Below, in pieces: positions 5,862-27,302 of a stretch of DNA of 34,154 nucleotides. The notes below the pieces were generated by a model, which was given only the letters and a program-made list of their open reading frames with translations, made no database searches and was not told the origin of the DNA. The stretch is from an uncultured Methanobrevibacter sp. (GTDB taxonomy: Archaea; Methanobacteriota; Methanobacteria; Methanobacteriales; Methanobacteriaceae), in contig NZ_CAMVPN010000019.1 of NCBI RefSeq assembly GCF_947169325.1, positions 1 to 34,154 on the forward strand, given 5' to 3'. The translations under genes and the position numbers were made by a program. The first letter of the stretch is position 1. Each line of letters opens with the position of its first letter.

Positions 5862-5900
5862 GTATTACTCAAATGCAAAAATAATACTAATTTGTATTAC
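5862..5900. promoter_or_regulatory. Distal GTATTAC box cluster upstream of the Ni/Co transporter
   Basis: GTATTAC occurs at 5862-5868 and again at 5894-5900, exactly 32 bases apart, with ATAATAC at 5881-5887 between them. A TATA-like TTTATATA follows at 5911-5918. The same boxes recur next to the cbiM/nikM start. A NikR-type metal regulator is the likely reader, but this is an inference. Confidence 0.55.
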
Positions 5901-6024
5901 TTTAATAACATTTATATATTCAAATATAATTATATAAATAATTGTCAAGAAATATATAGGATTTATTAACAAGTATATTTAATAAAACTCCCAGATAACT
6001 TGATATTATTAAAAATAAACGAAA

Positions 6025-6080
6025 ATAATACTTGAAAGTAATACTAATTTATAAATGGAAATAAAAAAAGTATTACTTTT
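6025..6080 (+). promoter_or_regulatory. cbiM/nikM promoter with AGTATTACT boxes bracketing the TATA box
   Basis: ATAATAC (6025-6031), GTAATAC (6038-6044) and the perfect 15-base palindrome AAAAGTATTACTTTT (6066-6080) surround a TATA box, TTTATAAA (6048-6055). The centres of the last two boxes are 32 bases apart. The predicted transcript start near 6078 lies within the palindrome, so a bound regulator would block initiation. An identical 15-mer precedes the nicotianamine synthase gene. Confidence 0.65.
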
Positions 6081-6100: not shown

Positions 6101-6739
6101 TTGCATATACCTGACGGATTTATACCTATTTCACAGTGCCTCATATACTATGTAATTTTAATCGTTGCATTGTACTTCTCTGTAAAATGGGCAAGATCTA
6201 ACCTAGACGAAAAACGTATACCTCTTTTAGCCGTACTCGCTGCAGGTATCTTTGCAATCATGTCCATGAACATGCCGATTCCATTCGGTACAAGTGGACA
6301 CATGGTTGGAGGAGCTCTTGTAGCCATCGTATTCCTCGCTCCTGAAGCTGCCGTTTTAGTATTTACAGTAGTATTATTAATCCAGGCATTAATCTTTGGA
6401 GATGGTGGTATCACCGCTCTCGGAGCAAACGTATTGAATATGGCAATCATAGGAGGATTCGTAGGATTATACACCTTTAAAGCACTTAAAAACATGATTG
6501 GAAAATATGCTGCAGCCGGTATTGGTGCATGGTTGGCTACTGTGCTTGCTGCTTTAGCATGTGCTATTGAAATGGCTATCGCAGGAACATTCCCAGTAAG
6601 CGTGGGTATCCCATCAATGGTATTATACCACTTCTTTATTGGAATAATTGAAGCAGTATTGACTGTCATTGTTCTTGTAGCCTTAGACAAATTCAGACCA
6701 GACCTACTCGCATGGAACAAAAGCGAAGGAGATGCATAA
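6101..6739 (+). CDS. cbiM: ECF-type nickel/cobalt transporter substrate-binding membrane subunit (CbiM/NikM)
   Basis: The S component of an energy-coupling-factor metal transporter. The protein must start MHIPDGF, because in this family the N-terminal amine and His2 coordinate Ni2+ or Co2+. This fixes the start at TTG 6101, supported by GGAGGA at 6089-6094. Six to seven membrane segments and the MNMPIPFGTSGHMVGG motif (near residues 57-72, with further metal-ligand His) are typical. Four coupled genes M, N, Q and O follow in order. Nickel rather than cobalt is favoured because the promoter shares its operator with nicotianamine synthase, but sequence alone does not separate NikM from CbiM. 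Confidence 0.92.
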   Translation: MHIPDGFIPISQCLIYYVILIVALYFSVKWARSNLDEKRIPLLAVLAAGIFAIMSMNMPIPFGTSGHMVGGALVAIVFLAPEAAVLVFTVVLLIQALIFGDGGITALGANVLNMAIIGGFVGLYTFKALKNMIGKYAAAGIGAWLATVLAALACAIEMAIAGTFPVSVGIPSMVLYHFFIGIIEAVLTVIVLVALDKFRPDLLAWNKSEGDA

Positions 6740-6740
6740 T

Positions 6741-7046
6741 ATGGATAAAAAAGATACCTATTTAATTGTAGTAGCAGTTGTCATTTGTATTGTAATATGC
6801 TGTCTTTCACCATATATTGCATCAGGTGATCCTGACGGTCTTGAAAAATCTGCAGAAGATTCAGGTCTTGCAGAAGATTTCGCTGTTGAAGAAATCAGCG
6901 GAATTCCAGAAGCAATCTTCCCAGATTATGCATTCGCAAATGATCCTGATAACCAGGCATTACAGATAGTGGCGCTGGTACTCGGTGCTATCATAACATT
7001 ATTATTAGGATACGGCGTTGCAGCAATAGTAAGGCGTAGAAATTAA
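6741..7046 (+). CDS. Ni/Co ECF transporter accessory subunit (NikN/CbiN-like, PDGLE domain)
   Basis: A 101-residue protein with two membrane helices (residues about 7-27 and 75-95) around an external loop starting with DPDGLEKSAED, the signature of the PDGLE domain. This is found in NikN or in proteins fused to CbiM/NikM. It assists metal loading into the M subunit. The start is ATG 6741, just after the cbiM stop (6737-6739), with an AAGGAG ribosome binding site inside the end of cbiM. An ATG at 6732 in the same frame overlaps cbiM and lies too close to that site. The PDGLE type is commoner with nickel systems, a mild argument for nickel. Confidence 0.88.
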   Translation: MDKKDTYLIVVAVVICIVICCLSPYIASGDPDGLEKSAEDSGLAEDFAVEEISGIPEAIFPDYAFANDPDNQALQIVALVLGAIITLLLGYGVAAIVRRRN

Positions 7047-7062
7047 ATTTTTTAATTTCTAC

Positions 7063-7074
7063 AACTTTTTTTTT
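7063..7074 (+). terminator. T-run after nikN/cbiN
   Basis: A run of about nine T follows the stop by some 15 bases, with no strong hairpin. Archaeal transcription often ends at such U-tracts. A new TATA-like stretch (AATAATATATTA, near 7112-7123) before cbiQ suggests that the QO half may also have its own promoter. Confidence 0.35.
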
Positions 7075-7157
7075 AAAAAATAATTGAAAATGATTAAAAT
7101 TAACATAAGCGAATAATAATATATTACTACTTTTTAATATTATATTAGTGAATCAAC

Positions 7158-7988
7158 ATGGCAGATATAACACAGATAATAAGATTTGATGATTTGGCAT
7201 CAAAAGACAGCCCAATACATAATTTGGAAGGGCGAATTAAGTTAATTTCCACTTTACTTATCATTATTGTATGTGTTGTGTCAAAAGAACTTTTCATACC
7301 CATAGTTTTAGAGATAATGCTATTGATTATATTAAAAATAGCAAAATTATCATATGTCGATTCATTTAAACGTTTGTTAATGTTACTTCCCTTTGGTGGA
7401 GCAATCATAATATTTCAACCTTTCATCCAGCCAGGAAACATCATCTGGAGCTATTCATGGTTACATATAACTGACTTTGGACTGAATTGGGCAATACTTT
7501 TGTTAGTTCGATTGATTGTGTCATTGACTACAATCATCATATATTCCTCAACAACACCCCTTCAGGAAATGGCAAGTTCTTTTAGAAAATTAAAGATGCC
7601 AAGGGATTTGGCCATGATATTGTCAATTATGGTAAGATTTTTATTTTTGTTTGTTGATGAGCTTGCAGCAATCAGGAAAAGCCAGAAATCAAGAAATTTC
7701 GACATCCATTCCAAAAAGGTGTCTTACAAATGGACAGTAAAGCAGGTGGGATATACTATAGGAATGATGTTTTTAAAGGCTTATGAACAGGGAGAAAGGG
7801 TTCACAAAAGTATGGTAAGCAGAGGATTTTCAGATACCTCTGAAATGTTCAATGAAAAAAAATCACCTGAAAAAAGCGACTACATTTACATAATCTCAAT
7901 CATAGTTATCATAATAATCTTGGAAATAATTGTATTCAAATACTCAGGACAACTGGGTTACTTTGGCCAAAACTTTTCAATTAATTAG
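7158..7988 (+). CDS. cbiQ: ECF transporter transmembrane (T) component CbiQ/NikQ
   Basis: The energy-coupling T subunit, 276 residues with about five membrane helices. The coupling helix motif, ending in the Ser-Arg-Gly of [10 protein letters not shown] (near residue 218), is the family's A/S-R-G signature that contacts the ATPase. AGTGA 6 bases before ATG 7158 serves as ribosome binding site. The gene follows nikN by 111 bases and precedes cbiO by 8 bases. Together the M, N, Q and O products form a complete group I ECF metal importer in the cytoplasmic membrane. Confidence 0.92.
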
Positions 7989-7996
7989 GTGTTAAA

Positions 7997-8836
7997 ATGA
8001 CAGACATTCATTTAGAGACAAAAAACTTATCTTTTACATATTCAGATGGAACAAAGGCTTTAAGAAATGTAAATATTCAAATTAAAAAAGGAGAAAAAAT
8101 AGCCATTATGGGACCTAACGGAGCCGGCAAATCCACTTTGTTTTCCCATTTCAACGGTTTAACAGAACCTACTTCAGGCCATGTTGAAATTGACGGTGAA
8201 AAGATAGTTTTCGAAAGAGAAGAACTGCTTAAGGTAAGGCAAAAGGTTGGAATAGTATTCCAGGATCCCAATGATCAGCTCTTTGCACCTACAGTTAAGG
8301 AAGATGTCGCATTCGGACCTATGAACCTGGGACTTGAATATGAAGAAGTTGAAAAAAGAATCGCAGAATCACTGGAAATGGTCGGCATGAGAGGCTTTGA
8401 AGATAAAACCCCACACCACCTAAGCGGAGGCCAGCAGAAAAGAGTCGCCATTGCAGGAATTGTTGCAATGAGGCCTGAAATAATGATTCTTGATGAGCCT
8501 ACTGCAGGTCTTGACCCTGAAGGTGTCGATAAGGTATTGGATATCTTAAACGAACTCAACAAAGATGGAATGAGCATAGTCATCTCTTCCCACGACATAG
8601 AGATGGTGAATGAATTTGCAGACAAGATCTTTGTCCTCTACAATGGTGAAATAATCGCCGAAGGAGACAAGCATCAGATATTTTCCGATAAGGAACTGTT
8701 AAAAAAAGCACACTTGAAAGCACCGGTTGCAACCGAAATACTTTATAAATTAAAAGAAAACGGATTGGATGTGGATACTGAAAAATTAAACATTGATGAA
8801 GTGGTTGAAGAAATATTGAAAGCGACAAAAAATTAA
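7997..8836 (+). CDS. cbiO: ECF transporter ATPase CbiO/NikO
   Basis: ABC ATPase of 279 residues. It has Walker [10 protein letters not shown] (residues 39-47), a Q-loop in [12 protein letters not shown] (near 88-99, typical of ECF A components), signature LSGGQQKR (near 141), Walker [13 protein letters not shown] (near 160) and an H-switch in SSHD. It energises the CbiQ/CbiM complex for Ni2+ or Co2+ uptake. GGTG lies upstream of ATG 7997. Its stop overlaps by 4 bases the end of the convergent zinc-ribbon gene on the other strand. Confidence 0.93.
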
Positions 8837-9085: not shown

Positions 9086-9313
9086 TTATTCCACTTCAAT
9101 GTTTTCAGCTTCTTCTTTACGAAGACAAACATCATACCCTTTTACACTCATTTCAATAGGATCTCCTAAAGTAGCAACTTTTTTTACAGTAATTTTAGCT
9201 CCTTTTACAAAACCCATACCTAACAAGTGTCTTCTTAAATCCACGTCACCAGTATCATGGTATTTCACCAAAGTTACTGTTTCACCTGGTTTTGTATCTT
9301 TTAAGGTTTTCAT
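9086..9313 (-). CDS. feoA: Ferrous iron transport protein A
   Basis: A 75-residue SH3-like FeoA protein. LLGMGFVKGAKITVKK (residues about 30-45) and the closing GYDVCLRKEEAENIEV strand are the family hallmarks. FeoA is a cytoplasmic partner of the FeoB Fe2+ channel. It lies downstream of feoB on the same strand but has its own TATA box and iron boxes in the 135-base gap, so it can be transcribed separately. GGTGA lies just before ATG 9313. Confidence 0.95.
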   Translation of the reverse strand: MKTLKDTKPGETVTLVKYHDTGDVDLRRHLLGMGFVKGAKITVKKVATLGDPIEMSVKGYDVCLRKEEAENIEVE

Positions 9314-9332
9314 ATTATCACCATAATCAAAT

Positions 9333-9408
9333 AATTTTTAGGCATACTAAAAATTCATTGTATTATATTATGTTACAACAAGTATATAAATATTTAGTTA
9401 TGACTAAA
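9333..9408 (-). promoter_or_regulatory. feoA promoter with two iron boxes
   Basis: The TATA box (minus strand TTTATATA, 9383-9390) is bracketed by two inverted repeats. The downstream one has perfect 9-base arms, AATTTTTAG (9333-9341) and CTAAAAATT (9347-9355), placed around the predicted start. The upstream one is TTTAG (9393-9397) with CTAAA (9404-9408), next to the BRE position. This is the architecture of a metal-dependent (DtxR/MDR1-like) repressor site. Confidence 0.7.
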
Positions 9409-9448
9409 AATTTAAAAAAAAGTGAAAATCAGAAACATCCGATTTCAC

Positions 9449-11467
9449 TTATCCAAATCCTGCTAATCCTCCGATTTGGAAAATAAGGAATGAAACGATA
9501 TATGCAGTTACTAAAGTAATGGCACACATTGTTAATGCCCATCTGTAACTGTTGGTTTCCTGTTTGATTGCACCGATAGCTGCAAAACATGGAGTGTACA
9601 ATAAGGTAAACGCCATGAATGAGAATGCAGACAATGGAGTGAATGTGTCATGCACCAAACTTGTAATTCCTTCTTCATCATCCTCTTCCATACCTGCTAA
9701 AGTACCGAAGGTTGCAACTACAACTTCCTTAGCAGCCAATCCAGCAATAATAGCCACTGCAGCTTGCCAGGTTCCAAATCCTAATGGAGCAAATATTGGA
9801 GCGATAACACTACCAATCACACCTAAAAGGCTCATTTGAGGATCTGTTCCTCCCCATGGGAAGACATTCTGTAAAATCCACAATACTATAGAACAAGCAA
9901 GGATTAAAGTACCTGCTTTTCTTAAGAATCCTTTTACCTTTTCCCAGGTGTGTAAGAGTACACCTTTTATAGATGGTACCTTATATGTCGGCAATTCCAT
10001 AACAAACGGTGTGGATAATCCTTTAAACATAGTCCTTTTGAGGATTGCTGCAACAATAAGTGCCACAACGATACCCAACAAGTAAATTGCAAGCAACATG
10101 TTACCTTGGTTTTCAGCGAAAAATGCTGCAATAAAAATACCGTAAATCGGTAATCTGGCAGTACATGACATGAAAGGAACAAGCATCATCGCAAGCATAC
10201 GGTCCCCTTCGTTTTCCATGGTTCTTGTTGCCATAATAGCAGGCACACCACAACCAAATCCTAAAATCATAGGAATGAAAGCCTTACCGTGAAGACCCAC
10301 AATTTTGTGCATTACAATATCCAATGTGAATGCAGCCCTTGCCAGATAACCACAGTCTTCCAATATGCTCAAGAATAAAAACATCAGAATAATGATTGGC
10401 AAGAAAGTAAGAACACCACCTACACCTCCGATGATTCCATCACAGATGAATGATGAAAGAAGACCCTCACCGAGGTAACTTGCTACTAATCCTCCTAACG
10501 CACCAAATGCTTCATCAATCATGTCCTGGAAAGGAGCACCGATTGTAAATGTCAATTGGAACATTGCCCACATGATAATGATAAATATGAATGGGGCTAA
10601 AATCCTGTTTGTAACAATCTTATCAATTTTATCTGTTGTTGTTTCTTTTTCAACAGCAGGTCTTTTGACTGCTTCAGCCATCAAACCGTCAATGAATGCA
10701 TACCTTGCATTTGCAATAACTTCTTCGGGACCTTCATTATACACATCACGAAGGTGCGTACTCACTTTATCCACTTCAGCAAATATTTGGGAACTTTTTG
10801 AAGATCCTTGAACTTTTTCAATAACAATAGTGTCTTTTTCTAATAATTTTATTGCGGTCCATACTGACGGAACATCCAATAGACTTTTATCCTGTTCAAT
10901 AATAGCTTGCAAATCCATCAAATGACCTTTGATGTCATTTCCATAGGATAACTTTTCACTGGAGTCGATTGGACTTTTGGACTGCTTTTCAACGGTTGTT
11001 AATAATTCTTCGAAACCGTCTTTATTTTTTGCATTTATTTCAACAACAGGGAATCCTAAAAGTTCGCTCATCAAACCAATGTCAATGATATGATCCCTTT
11101 TCTTTGCAAAATCGTTCATGTTAAGAGCCATCACCATGTTGGCTCCAAGTTCCATCATTTGAACTGTTAAATATAAATTACGTTCCAAATTAGCAGCATC
11201 AACTACATTAATAATTACATCAGAGTCATCATCCACAATGAAATCCCTTGAAACGATCTCCTCCATGGAGTGAGCGCTTAATGCATAATTACCCGGCAAA
11301 TCAACAACCTCATATTCATAACTGCCGTGGGTAAAACTACCTTCTGCTCTTTCAACAGTTTTTCCAGGCCAGTTTCCGACATGTTGGCGCATACCAGTTA
11401 ATTGATTGAATACAGTAGTTTTCCCTACATTAGGGTTTCCTGCTAATCCTACAATTAATTTTGTCAT
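9449..11467 (-). CDS. feoB: Ferrous iron transporter FeoB
   Basis: The Fe2+ membrane transporter, 672 residues and close to the usual archaeal length. The N-terminal GTPase domain shows G1 GNPNVGKT (10-17), G3 DLPGNY (near 57) and G4 NMND (near 116). Then come the helical GDI region and the polytopic Gate domains with the Cys-containing GFGCGVPAIMATR and MSCTARLPIYG motifs. The C-terminal segment contains TPCFAAIGAIKQE. The gene is first in the minus-strand feoB-feoA-zinc-ribbon cluster. Iron boxes lie immediately upstream (11576-11640), so expression is probably repressed by iron. Confidence 0.97.
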   Translation of the reverse strand: MTKLIVGLAGNPNVGKTTVFNQLTGMRQHVGNWPGKTVERAEGSFTHGSYEYEVVDLPGNYALSAHSMEEIVSRDFIVDDDSDVIINVVDAANLERNLYLTVQMMELGANMVMALNMNDFAKKRDHIIDIGLMSELLGFPVVEINAKNKDGFEELLTTVEKQSKSPIDSSEKLSYGNDIKGHLMDLQAIIEQDKSLLDVPSVWTAIKLLEKDTIVIEKVQGSSKSSQIFAEVDKVSTHLRDVYNEGPEEVIANARYAFIDGLMAEAVKRPAVEKETTTDKIDKIVTNRILAPFIFIIIMWAMFQLTFTIGAPFQDMIDEAFGALGGLVASYLGEGLLSSFICDGIIGGVGGVLTFLPIIILMFLFLSILEDCGYLARAAFTLDIVMHKIVGLHGKAFIPMILGFGCGVPAIMATRTMENEGDRMLAMMLVPFMSCTARLPIYGIFIAAFFAENQGNMLLAIYLLGIVVALIVAAILKRTMFKGLSTPFVMELPTYKVPSIKGVLLHTWEKVKGFLRKAGTLILACSIVLWILQNVFPWGGTDPQMSLLGVIGSVIAPIFAPLGFGTWQAAVAIIAGLAAKEVVVATFGTLAGMEEDDEEGITSLVHDTFTPLSAFSFMAFTLLYTPCFAAIGAIKQETNSYRWALTMCAITLVTAYIVSFLIFQIGGLAGFG

Positions 11468-26361: not shown

Positions 26362-26404
26362 AAAAGTATTACTTTTTATACTGATTTTGACGATTTAGTA
26401 ATAC
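26362..26404 (+). promoter_or_regulatory. Paired AGTATTACT boxes upstream of nicotianamine synthase
   Basis: The palindrome AAAAGTATTACTTTT (26362-26376) is identical to the one at 6066-6080. GTAATAC (26398-26404) follows with centres 32 bases apart, and a TATA-like TTTTATAC (26375-26382) lies between. This repeats the box-TATA-box layout of the Ni/Co transporter promoter. A second TATA-like TTTAATATA lies near 26424. Confidence 0.6.
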
Positions 26405-26480
26405 TTCATTTCTAATTTAAAAAATTTAATATAGATTAAACAACAAACTTCTATTCAAGCATAATTTAAAAGTGATAAAG

Positions 26481-27302
26481 ATGAGTTGTTATAAATATTG
26501 GGGAACAATAGCTGAAATAGCTGAAAAACTTTCAAGTTATGGGGATTTAGAAAAATATGGAGATTCCGCACTCGATGATATTAATATCTACGAAATCATT
26601 GAAATATTGGATGAAGTGGAAATCATAGCTCACGACAAGGAAATTGATTTTGATTCTGCAAAACACATTCTTGATGATGAAAAAATGAATAAAGCATTGA
26701 AACTAATTCGCAAATTCTACGTATATATCGGAGCAAGGCTTGAGACAGAAAATGCGCTTAAAATTTTGGAATCAGACAATCCTACCGAAACATTGGATTC
26801 ATTTCATTTTTATGATAGATACATTGGTCTGATCAATAATGAAAGTCAACTGGCGAAATTCAATGAAAACAAGACATTTGTCTTTTTGGGAAGCGGACCC
26901 CTACCTTTGACATTGATTATGTTCAACAAAGTTTATGGCTGCAAATGCATTGGGATTGAATTGCAAGAAGAAGTGGCAGACCTTTCAAGAAAAGTATTGA
27001 AAAGATTAGGCCTTGATGAAGATATAAAAATTATAACCGGCGATGAAAATGCTATAGCAAATCTTGAATACGACATTCTGATGGTGGCTGCACTGGCTGA
27101 GCCGAAAGAAAGAGTATTTGCAAACATATGGGAATTCATAGATGAAAATACTCCCTTAATTTATAGAACATACACAGGTATGAGAGCGATATTATATGCT
27201 CCTGTCCTTGAAAAAGATACACGAAGATTCCATAAAGAAGTCATGGTATTGCCAACTGGGAAAACAAACAACACTTCAGTTTTAATTAGAAAAATAGTAT
27301 GA
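26481..27302 (+). CDS. Nicotianamine synthase family protein
   Basis: A 273-residue protein with a helical N-terminal domain (about 1-115) and a SAM-binding Rossmann domain. The latter is opened by TFVFLGSGPLPLTLIMFNKV (near 135-155), the hallmark motif of nicotianamine synthases. The family condenses aminopropylcarboxylate groups from S-adenosylmethionine; the Methanothermobacter enzyme makes thermonicotianamine, a metal chelator. A role in Ni handling here is supported by the promoter boxes shared with the Ni/Co transporter. The start is ATG 26481; GTG 26472 belongs to the AGTGAT ribosome binding site. It is monocistronic and convergent with the DGC gene. Confidence 0.85.
   Translation: MSCYKYWGTIAEIAEKLSSYGDLEKYGDSALDDINIYEIIEILDEVEIIAHDKEIDFDSAKHILDDEKMNKALKLIRKFYVYIGARLETENALKILESDNPTETLDSFHFYDRYIGLINNESQLAKFNENKTFVFLGSGPLPLTLIMFNKVYGCKCIGIELQEEVADLSRKVLKRLGLDEDIKIITGDENAIANLEYDILMVAALAEPKERVFANIWEFIDENTPLIYRTYTGMRAILYAPVLEKDTRRFHKEVMVLPTGKTNNTSVLIRKIV

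Follow-up and report, generated by a model that had tools for sequence, protein, structure and literature searches.

The 34,154-nucleotide stretch of DNA that was analysed (the window; contig NZ_CAMVPN010000019.1 of an uncultured Methanobrevibacter sp., assembly GCF_947169325.1) carries a CbiM-PDGLE-CbiQ-ABC operon (6101-8836) downstream of both a proximal and a distal paired box, as well as a nicotianamine synthase (NAS) gene with a paired box of its own. The features are as follows.

5862..5900, plus strand: distal paired box GTATTAC-N25-GTATTAC of the nikM operon (pattern match)
5911..5918, plus strand: TATA-like element just 3' of the distal pair (read from the sequence; the layout is alike in other nikM promoters)
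6038..6076, plus strand: proximal paired box GTAATAC-N25-GTATTAC of the nikM operon, with the TATA-like TTTATAAA within it at 6048-6055 (pattern match)
6066..6080, plus strand: near-palindrome AAAAGTATTACTTTT, 15 bases (word search)
6101..6739, plus strand: nikM-type CbiM (short type), passing NF004902 and failing TIGR00123 (PF01891, NCBIfam)
6732..7046, plus strand: PDGLE protein (PF13190), which we take to be of the NikN type
7158..7988, plus strand: CbiQ/NikQ permease (PF02361)
7997..8836, plus strand: CbiO/NikO ATPase (PF00005)
26362..26376, plus strand: near-palindrome AAAAGTATTACTTTT, 15 bases (word search)
26366..26404, plus strand: paired box GTATTAC-N25-GTAATAC upstream of NAS, with a TATA-like element within it at 26374-26380 (pattern match)
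26481..27302, plus strand: nicotianamine synthase-like protein, ATG start, GTG at 26472 also possible (PF03059, 80.6 bits)

The best solved relatives of the window NAS were 3fpe (E 2e-87) and 3o31 (E 3e-86), the latter named thermonicotianamine synthase, and the protein is accordingly a homologue of the solved archaeal enzyme and a predicted thermonicotianamine synthase; we know of no physiological role shown for an archaeal nicotianamine synthase. After the nik operon, feoA (by Pfam) and the gene of a FeoB-like protein (by eye) occupy 9086-11467 on the minus strand, and none of the window pairs at up to one mismatch is near them.

Paired boxes in the window and the source genome

The 15-base near-palindrome AAAAGTATTACTTTT had been reported by the first-pass annotation in only two perfect copies, and the word search returned exactly these (6066-6080 and 26362-26376). 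With up to two mismatches there were four matches in the window, which are the same two places on both strands each (0.60 expected), and no shuffle gave four. The annotation had also placed a second box with its centre exactly 32 bases away and a TATA-like element between the boxes at both sites, and had added a third pair at 5862/5894. All of this proved accurate: the window has three GTAWTAC-N25-GTAWTAC pairs (box starts 5862/5894, 6038/6070 and 26366/26398) with a centre spacing of exactly 32, and the TATA-like elements at 6048-6055 and 26374-26380 lie within their pairs. In each nikM pair, one box has a third, weaker box (ATAATAC, 5881-5887 and 6025-6031) beginning 13 bp ahead of it, and in several genomes of the genus (e.g., G048, G069, G030, G004 and G054) AATAATAC stands at the equivalent place of the distal pair.

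A genome scan for pairs at the 32-base spacing, which the annotation had named as a check on its reading, showed that the motif extends well past the window. The source genome held eight perfect gap-25 pairs, against ~0.13 expected per gap (P for at least eight pairs at one gap, ~2e-12); over gaps of 12 to 41, 14 pairs were found (eight at gap 25, three at gap 26, and one each at gaps 12, 22 and 34), and the reversed control gave four pairs summed over all 30 gaps. Gaps of 24 and 26 are in use besides 25, and since either A or T stands in the middle of a box, the boxes are nearly symmetric and their orientation is variable.

Of the other perfect pairs in the source genome, two precede the gene of a 1,687-residue CobN/magnesium-chelatase protein, and the rest precede two genes of nikA-like binding proteins or separate a NikD ATPase gene from a GNAT gene. 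Pairs that are weaker or have a gap of 26 accompany the third nikA operon, the gene of a large surface protein and that of a P1B metal ATPase. The 1,687-residue protein is CobN/HmuS-like (PF02514, 758 bits) and putatively exported to the surface, its signal-like N terminus having been judged by eye. On contig C29 of the same genome (L077, 1-12662), genes for DUF2162, MotA/ExbB-like, DUF2149 and large surface proteins lie around the CobN/HmuS-like gene; CobN and one of the surface proteins have box pairs upstream, and the locus resembles an hmu-type module, here in an archaeon, controlled by the proposed nickel operator. On contig C56 (L112, 7806-7919), two gap-26 pairs lie between the P1B metal ATPase gene, whose product has a His-rich C terminus, and another GNAT gene. 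P1B metal ATPases are usually exporters; this target is not predicted by a simple low-nickel regulon and does not fit simple repression.

The pair and its target genes across the family

Gap-25 pairs numbered 227 in 79 genomes of the family and were present in 66 of them, with three pairs for the reversed control, CATWATG, which is itself influenced by ATG codons. Among 137 loci fetched by protein (NAS, CbiM, Hmd and NikR) and not by motif, gaps of 24, 25 and 26 occurred 14, 26 and 5 times, respectively, and the reversed control gave one pair over gaps 0 to 80; other gaps (31, 33, 45, 62 and 64 to 67) recurred 4 to 9 times (maximum 9, gap 33), as expected, since promoters hold several boxes and the sequences are related. 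Outside open reading frames lay 118 of 119 distinct pairs, from loci fetched mostly by motif. The box consensus, drawn from 198 distinct pairs, was A-GTAWTAC-T, 9 bp long and symmetric, with the 7-bp core fixed by the search and only the flanks free (A in 87%, T in 86%); beyond it there was little signal, save for an A/T-rich stretch towards the middle.

The commonest neighbour families of the 119 pairs, labelled by Pfam/NCBIfam or by eye, were NikA-type binding protein (27), NikM-type CbiM (18), GNAT (15), a QueG-like iron-sulfur protein (12; labelled by eye), CobN (8), NikD (8), large surface protein (7), P1B ATPase (6), NAS (3) and FecB-like binding protein (3); five pairs had no neighbour within 500 bp. 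Apart from the P1B ATPase, GNAT, QueG-like and surface proteins, which have no known nickel role, the members are nickel-uptake or nickel-sparing genes, and it is because the pair recurs before such genes in many relatives that a nickel regulon is the most likely reading.

The family genomes have at least two kinds of CbiM: a short one (match of at most 609 nt), whose window copy has PDGLE next to it and fails TIGR00123, and a long one, whose copy in the source genome passes TIGR00123. A perfect pair lies 196 to 228 bp before short-type cbiM in 11 of the 14 other same-genus genomes that have this gene (G004, G020, G030, G043, G048, G051, G054, G060, G069, G075 and G078). Among the matches listed, a perfect pair was present within 700 bp of 31/47 short (nickel-type) versus 0/40 long (cobalt-type) cbiM genes (P 4e-12, a value that, like the other P values given here, is too small because orthologous promoters are not independent). 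This count covered the 52 of 79 genomes with a complete set of pairs (39 with pairs, 13 with none) and left out the last 15 matches, which are weaker relatives (E 2e-44 and worse). At up to one mismatch, a pair was likewise found in none of 22 long cbiM upstream regions.

These counts bear on the metal. A cobalt signal in place of nickel would be in keeping with two sets of targets, a CobN-family protein and cbiM-family transporters, the latter labelled cobalt transporters by NCBIfam; we give this very little credence, and a cobalt regulon was rejected on the absence of a pair from all 40 long, cobalt-type cbiM genes. In addition, hmd is a target and the Hmd protein is nickel-responsive, and CobN1 of M. 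marburgensis is reported to be high solely under nickel limitation, cobalt being absent from the limitations described (PMC12350162).

A pair at up to one mismatch was present in 17/25 hmd upstream regions of relatives, against 0/25 at control gaps of 18 to 20 and 5/25 at gaps of 29 to 31, the latter because hmd promoters hold several boxes; hmd was not found in the source genome. One further hmd pair (L254) lies at -439, beyond the 400-bp limit, and hmd, NikR and cbiM loci were dropped where the start was unplaceable or identity was low. In the scoring of NAS, hmd, NikR and long cbiM, 0 to 0.7% of shuffled sequences had a pair. The proteome of M. marburgensis, which belongs to another genus, shows Hmd, CobN1 and transporters up under nickel limitation (PMC12350162).

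For NAS, 15/43 upstream regions had a pair at up to one mismatch (4 of 47 loci were dropped), compared with 0.4% of shuffles, 1/43 at gaps of 18 to 20, 1/43 at gaps of 29 to 31, and 0/63 control genes (NikR 0/41 and long cbiM 0/22; P 2e-7). Eight genera (g1, g3, g6, g10, g13, g14, g16 and g17) are represented among the NAS genes that have a pair, and 28/43 regions were without one. The first-pass annotation had let its regulon hang on boxes upstream of NAS in close relatives, where the outcome was mixed, with a pair in 4 of 11 genus members (G000, G048, G043 and G054) and none in the other 7 (G030, G051, G060, G069, G072, G075 and G078). Membership of NAS in the regulon is patchy across genus and family.

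Twenty NAS neighbourhoods were chosen by hand: 10 belong to the same genus and were taken regardless of pair, and 10 belong to other genera, where most of those chosen have one. NAS lay beside a nikA operon in six of them (nikABCDE in G048, G069, G006, G022 and G052; nikABC, as far as read, in G010), and this clustering is support independent of the motif; in the source genome, NAS and the nikA operons are on different contigs. GNAT was present in nine neighbourhoods, a P1B ATPase in three and a MATE-like gene in three. GNAT is divergent from NAS, with the pair between the two, at L407, L413, L417, L418, L421, L424 and L425 (genera g1, g3, g6, g13 and g16), and a GNAT protein adjoining NAS may modify the chelator. 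In G016 and G026, a pair lies ~360 bp from NAS, that of G026 being nearer to a GNAT gene.

The 28 NAS regions without a pair, together with the 7/20 neighbourhoods in which the pair also faces a divergent GNAT gene, would suit a NAS that stands outside the regulon, its pair being due to chance or serving a neighbour such as GNAT. We consider this quite improbable, given 15/43 against shuffles and control genes, the clustering with nikA operons in 6/20 neighbourhoods, and the window itself, where NAS starts 68 to 76 bp after the pair and there is no divergent gene. The earlier claim that the nickel importer and NAS form one regulon is well supported by its members (nikM and not cobalt cbiM, nikA operons, CobN, hmd and NAS).

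NikR and the geometry of the candidate operator

NikR_C was detected in 72/79 family genomes. The source-genome NikR has a ribbon-helix-helix head and a NikR_C domain, and scores above the NCBIfam cut-offs of NF002169, NF003381 and NF002815 and below those of NF001884 (by 0.5 bit) and TIGR02793. Its QH, HxH and C align with the nickel ligands of 2bj1, which we take to be Pyrococcus NikR, and 2wvd, and presumably correspond to H76, H87, H89 and C95 in the E. coli numbering. HxH..C was present in 50/50 NikR loci read, and the reading head RISMS was identical in 43/50, the other seven being divergent or partial copies, among them the sole NikR found in genus g11. Autoregulation of NikR in the family was rejected, as 0/41 NikR upstream regions had a pair at up to one mismatch.

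With a width of 9 bp, about one major groove, the box would suit one ribbon-helix-helix dimer. NikR operators have spacings of N13-16 (N16 by another half-site count), whereas the gaps here are 24 to 26, the exception being hmd of six genomes outside the family (N14). Because the spacer is ~11 bp, or one turn, longer than in the published operators consulted, we treat this DNA as NikR-like but stretched, and not as a site proven to bind NikR. In composition, the two half-sites are of the GTRTTAC/GTAAYAC type; the published delta-proteobacterial NikR half-sites are GTGTTAC/GTAACAC at N13/14 and in either orientation (reported for D. psychrophila) (PMC545781). The attribution to NikR in the first-pass annotation is thus supported in part, by the presence of a NikR with nickel ligands and by a half-site like the published one, and the spacing counts against it; NikR as the binder of the paired boxes is what we infer from the sequence. 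Two further points against the NikR reading are that NikR genes lack a pair even though the NikR1 protein is up under nickel limitation in M. marburgensis (PMC12350162), and that one Methanothermobacter NikR homologue may respond to zinc (PMC3087415).

Beyond the family, 13 genomes of families f2 to f4 held six exact pairs at gaps of 24 to 26, versus one for the control. Short cbiM of f2 and f3 had a gap-26 pair with one or two mismatches just before the TATA element in 12/12 loci (0/1 locus read in f4), so the three-turn layout is probably older than the family. In three genomes of f3, which we take to be Methanothermobacter, a pair at gaps of 24 to 26 (up to two mismatches) lies 66 to 265 bp before 10/20 CobN genes, CobN1 not being singled out (reversed control, 0/20; gaps of 18 to 20, 1/20); these 20 upstream stretches were hand-picked, some are mutually orthologous, and the start of some reading frames is uncertain, length having been the sole criterion for choosing frames that run off the end. 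Another 30 CobN loci from f2 to f4, extending at most 1.5 kb past the domain match, had no pair at up to one mismatch, and 4 of them had a pair at two mismatches.

No hmd of f2, f3 or f4 (0/10) had a pair at gaps of 24 to 26 with up to two mismatches. In six f3 genomes (L365, L366, L368, L372, L374 and L376), hmd is preceded by GTACTAC-N14-GTATTAC, 46 bp before the start codon; here the box is of the same kind but at the spacing published for NikR, which counts in favour of NikR. Yet another CbiM type of f3 genomes, the third and with weaker scores (L303 to L305), has TTATTAC-N25/26-GTAATAC ~500 bp upstream. Five short-cbiM promoters listed from genus g4 (L313 to L315, L317 and L318) were without a recognisable pair; an altered NikR reading head was rejected as the cause, since the head is unchanged in the four read.

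The regulon might also be real and nickel-linked with another regulator on the boxes, e.g., an Lrp-type protein or another metal sensor binding as dimers three turns apart. Archaeal Lrp proteins go with regularly spaced palindromes three turns apart, and g4 combines the same NikR head with short cbiM genes lacking recognisable pairs, both in favour of such a regulator; winged-helix dimers usually need 13 to 20 bp, and the conserved box here is only ~9 bp, one major groove. The box spacing is unlike that of the published NikR operators consulted but the half-site resembles theirs (PMC545781), and with NikR in 72/79 genomes, we regard a different binder as unlikely.

A predicted nickel regulon and its place among known systems

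Nickel has a central part in methanogenesis (MCR, [NiFe]-hydrogenases). We assign a probability of roughly 70% to a NikR regulon with a stretched operator in most genera of the family, in a weaker form in two sister families, and with NAS as a member in some species; the parts of this explanation that we infer are NikR binding, repression, and a chelator that handles nickel. The boxes would be half-sites of a NikR operator with centres 31 to 33 bp apart, three helical turns. With nickel sufficient, NikR-Ni would sit on both boxes, next to the TATA element or spanning it, and keep transcription factors from binding, the tetramer that holds both boxes hindering TBP/TFB or polymerase. With nickel short, repression would lift and the importers NikMNQO and NikABCDE and the surface CobN/HmuS-like chelatase would be made, along with the nickel-free hydrogenase Hmd in relatives and thermonicotianamine synthase in some species. 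In the window, 10 bp separate the end of the distal nikM pair from the TATA element, and several other nikM promoters are alike; in promoters of other genes, the TATA element is inside or before the pair. Such a layout agrees with repression in the presence of nickel and its relief when the metal is lacking, as does the rise of CobN1 and Hmd in the relative.

A further, tentative proposal, which we find possible yet doubtful, is that Methanobacteriales secrete a nickel-controlled nickelophore of the thermonicotianamine type: NAS would build it, GNAT may modify it, MATE may export it, NikABCDE would reimport it, and a surface CobN/HmuS-like chelatase would strip metal from tetrapyrroles, all under the three-turn NikR operator. 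The basis of this putative pathway is co-regulation and clustering, not chemistry. If true, the nickelophore would be the archaeal counterpart of staphylopine, and two enzyme families would gain functions in archaea. Once NAS and CobN/HmuS are placed under an operator that nickel importers and hmd also have, their roles can be tested directly, and if NikR binds half-sites 32 bp apart, the known geometry of its operators is extended.

A literature search, covering few subscription journals, returned no paper combining NikR, methanogen and nicotianamine, and among the matches listed, no title or abstract start linked nicotianamine to nickel control in methanogens. Within the reach of that search, apparently new are the three-turn spacing, the membership of NAS, GNAT and the HmuS-like CobN cluster, and the same boxes at hmd.

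The staphylopine system cnt consists of CntKLM, CntABCDF and CntE. It is alike in having a NAS-like enzyme (the CntL chain matches the window NAS) near a NikABCDE-type importer, as in 6/20 neighbourhoods here, and putative metal control. It differs in that the enzyme here is of the archaeal thermonicotianamine synthase type, the neighbours include GNAT and MATE-like genes, and the binding protein of the importer scores far below the CntA cut-off. With HmuS and the hmu operon of Bacteroidota, the C29 locus shares a CobN-family protein with a signal-like N terminus and ExbB-like, DUF2149 and DUF2162 genes nearby, while the nickel-type operator assigned to it here sets it apart; the 2025 source describes archaeal species without a complete hmu operon and regards the use that archaea make of CobN/HmuS homologues as unclear (PMC12583661).

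Proteobacterial NikR regulons (E. coli nik; PMC545781) resemble the one proposed here in their nickel importers, GTRTTAC/GTAAYAC half-sites in either orientation and NikR ligands. They differ in spacing (N13/14 there, N24-26 here), in that the promoters here are archaeal, and in that NAS, the CobN/HmuS-like chelatase, GNAT and hmd are new targets here. Closest in organism, NikR control of nikMNQO was proposed for eight methanogens by Rodionov 2006, as cited in PMC10617489, and the regulon predicted here likewise places NikR over nikMNQO in methanogens.
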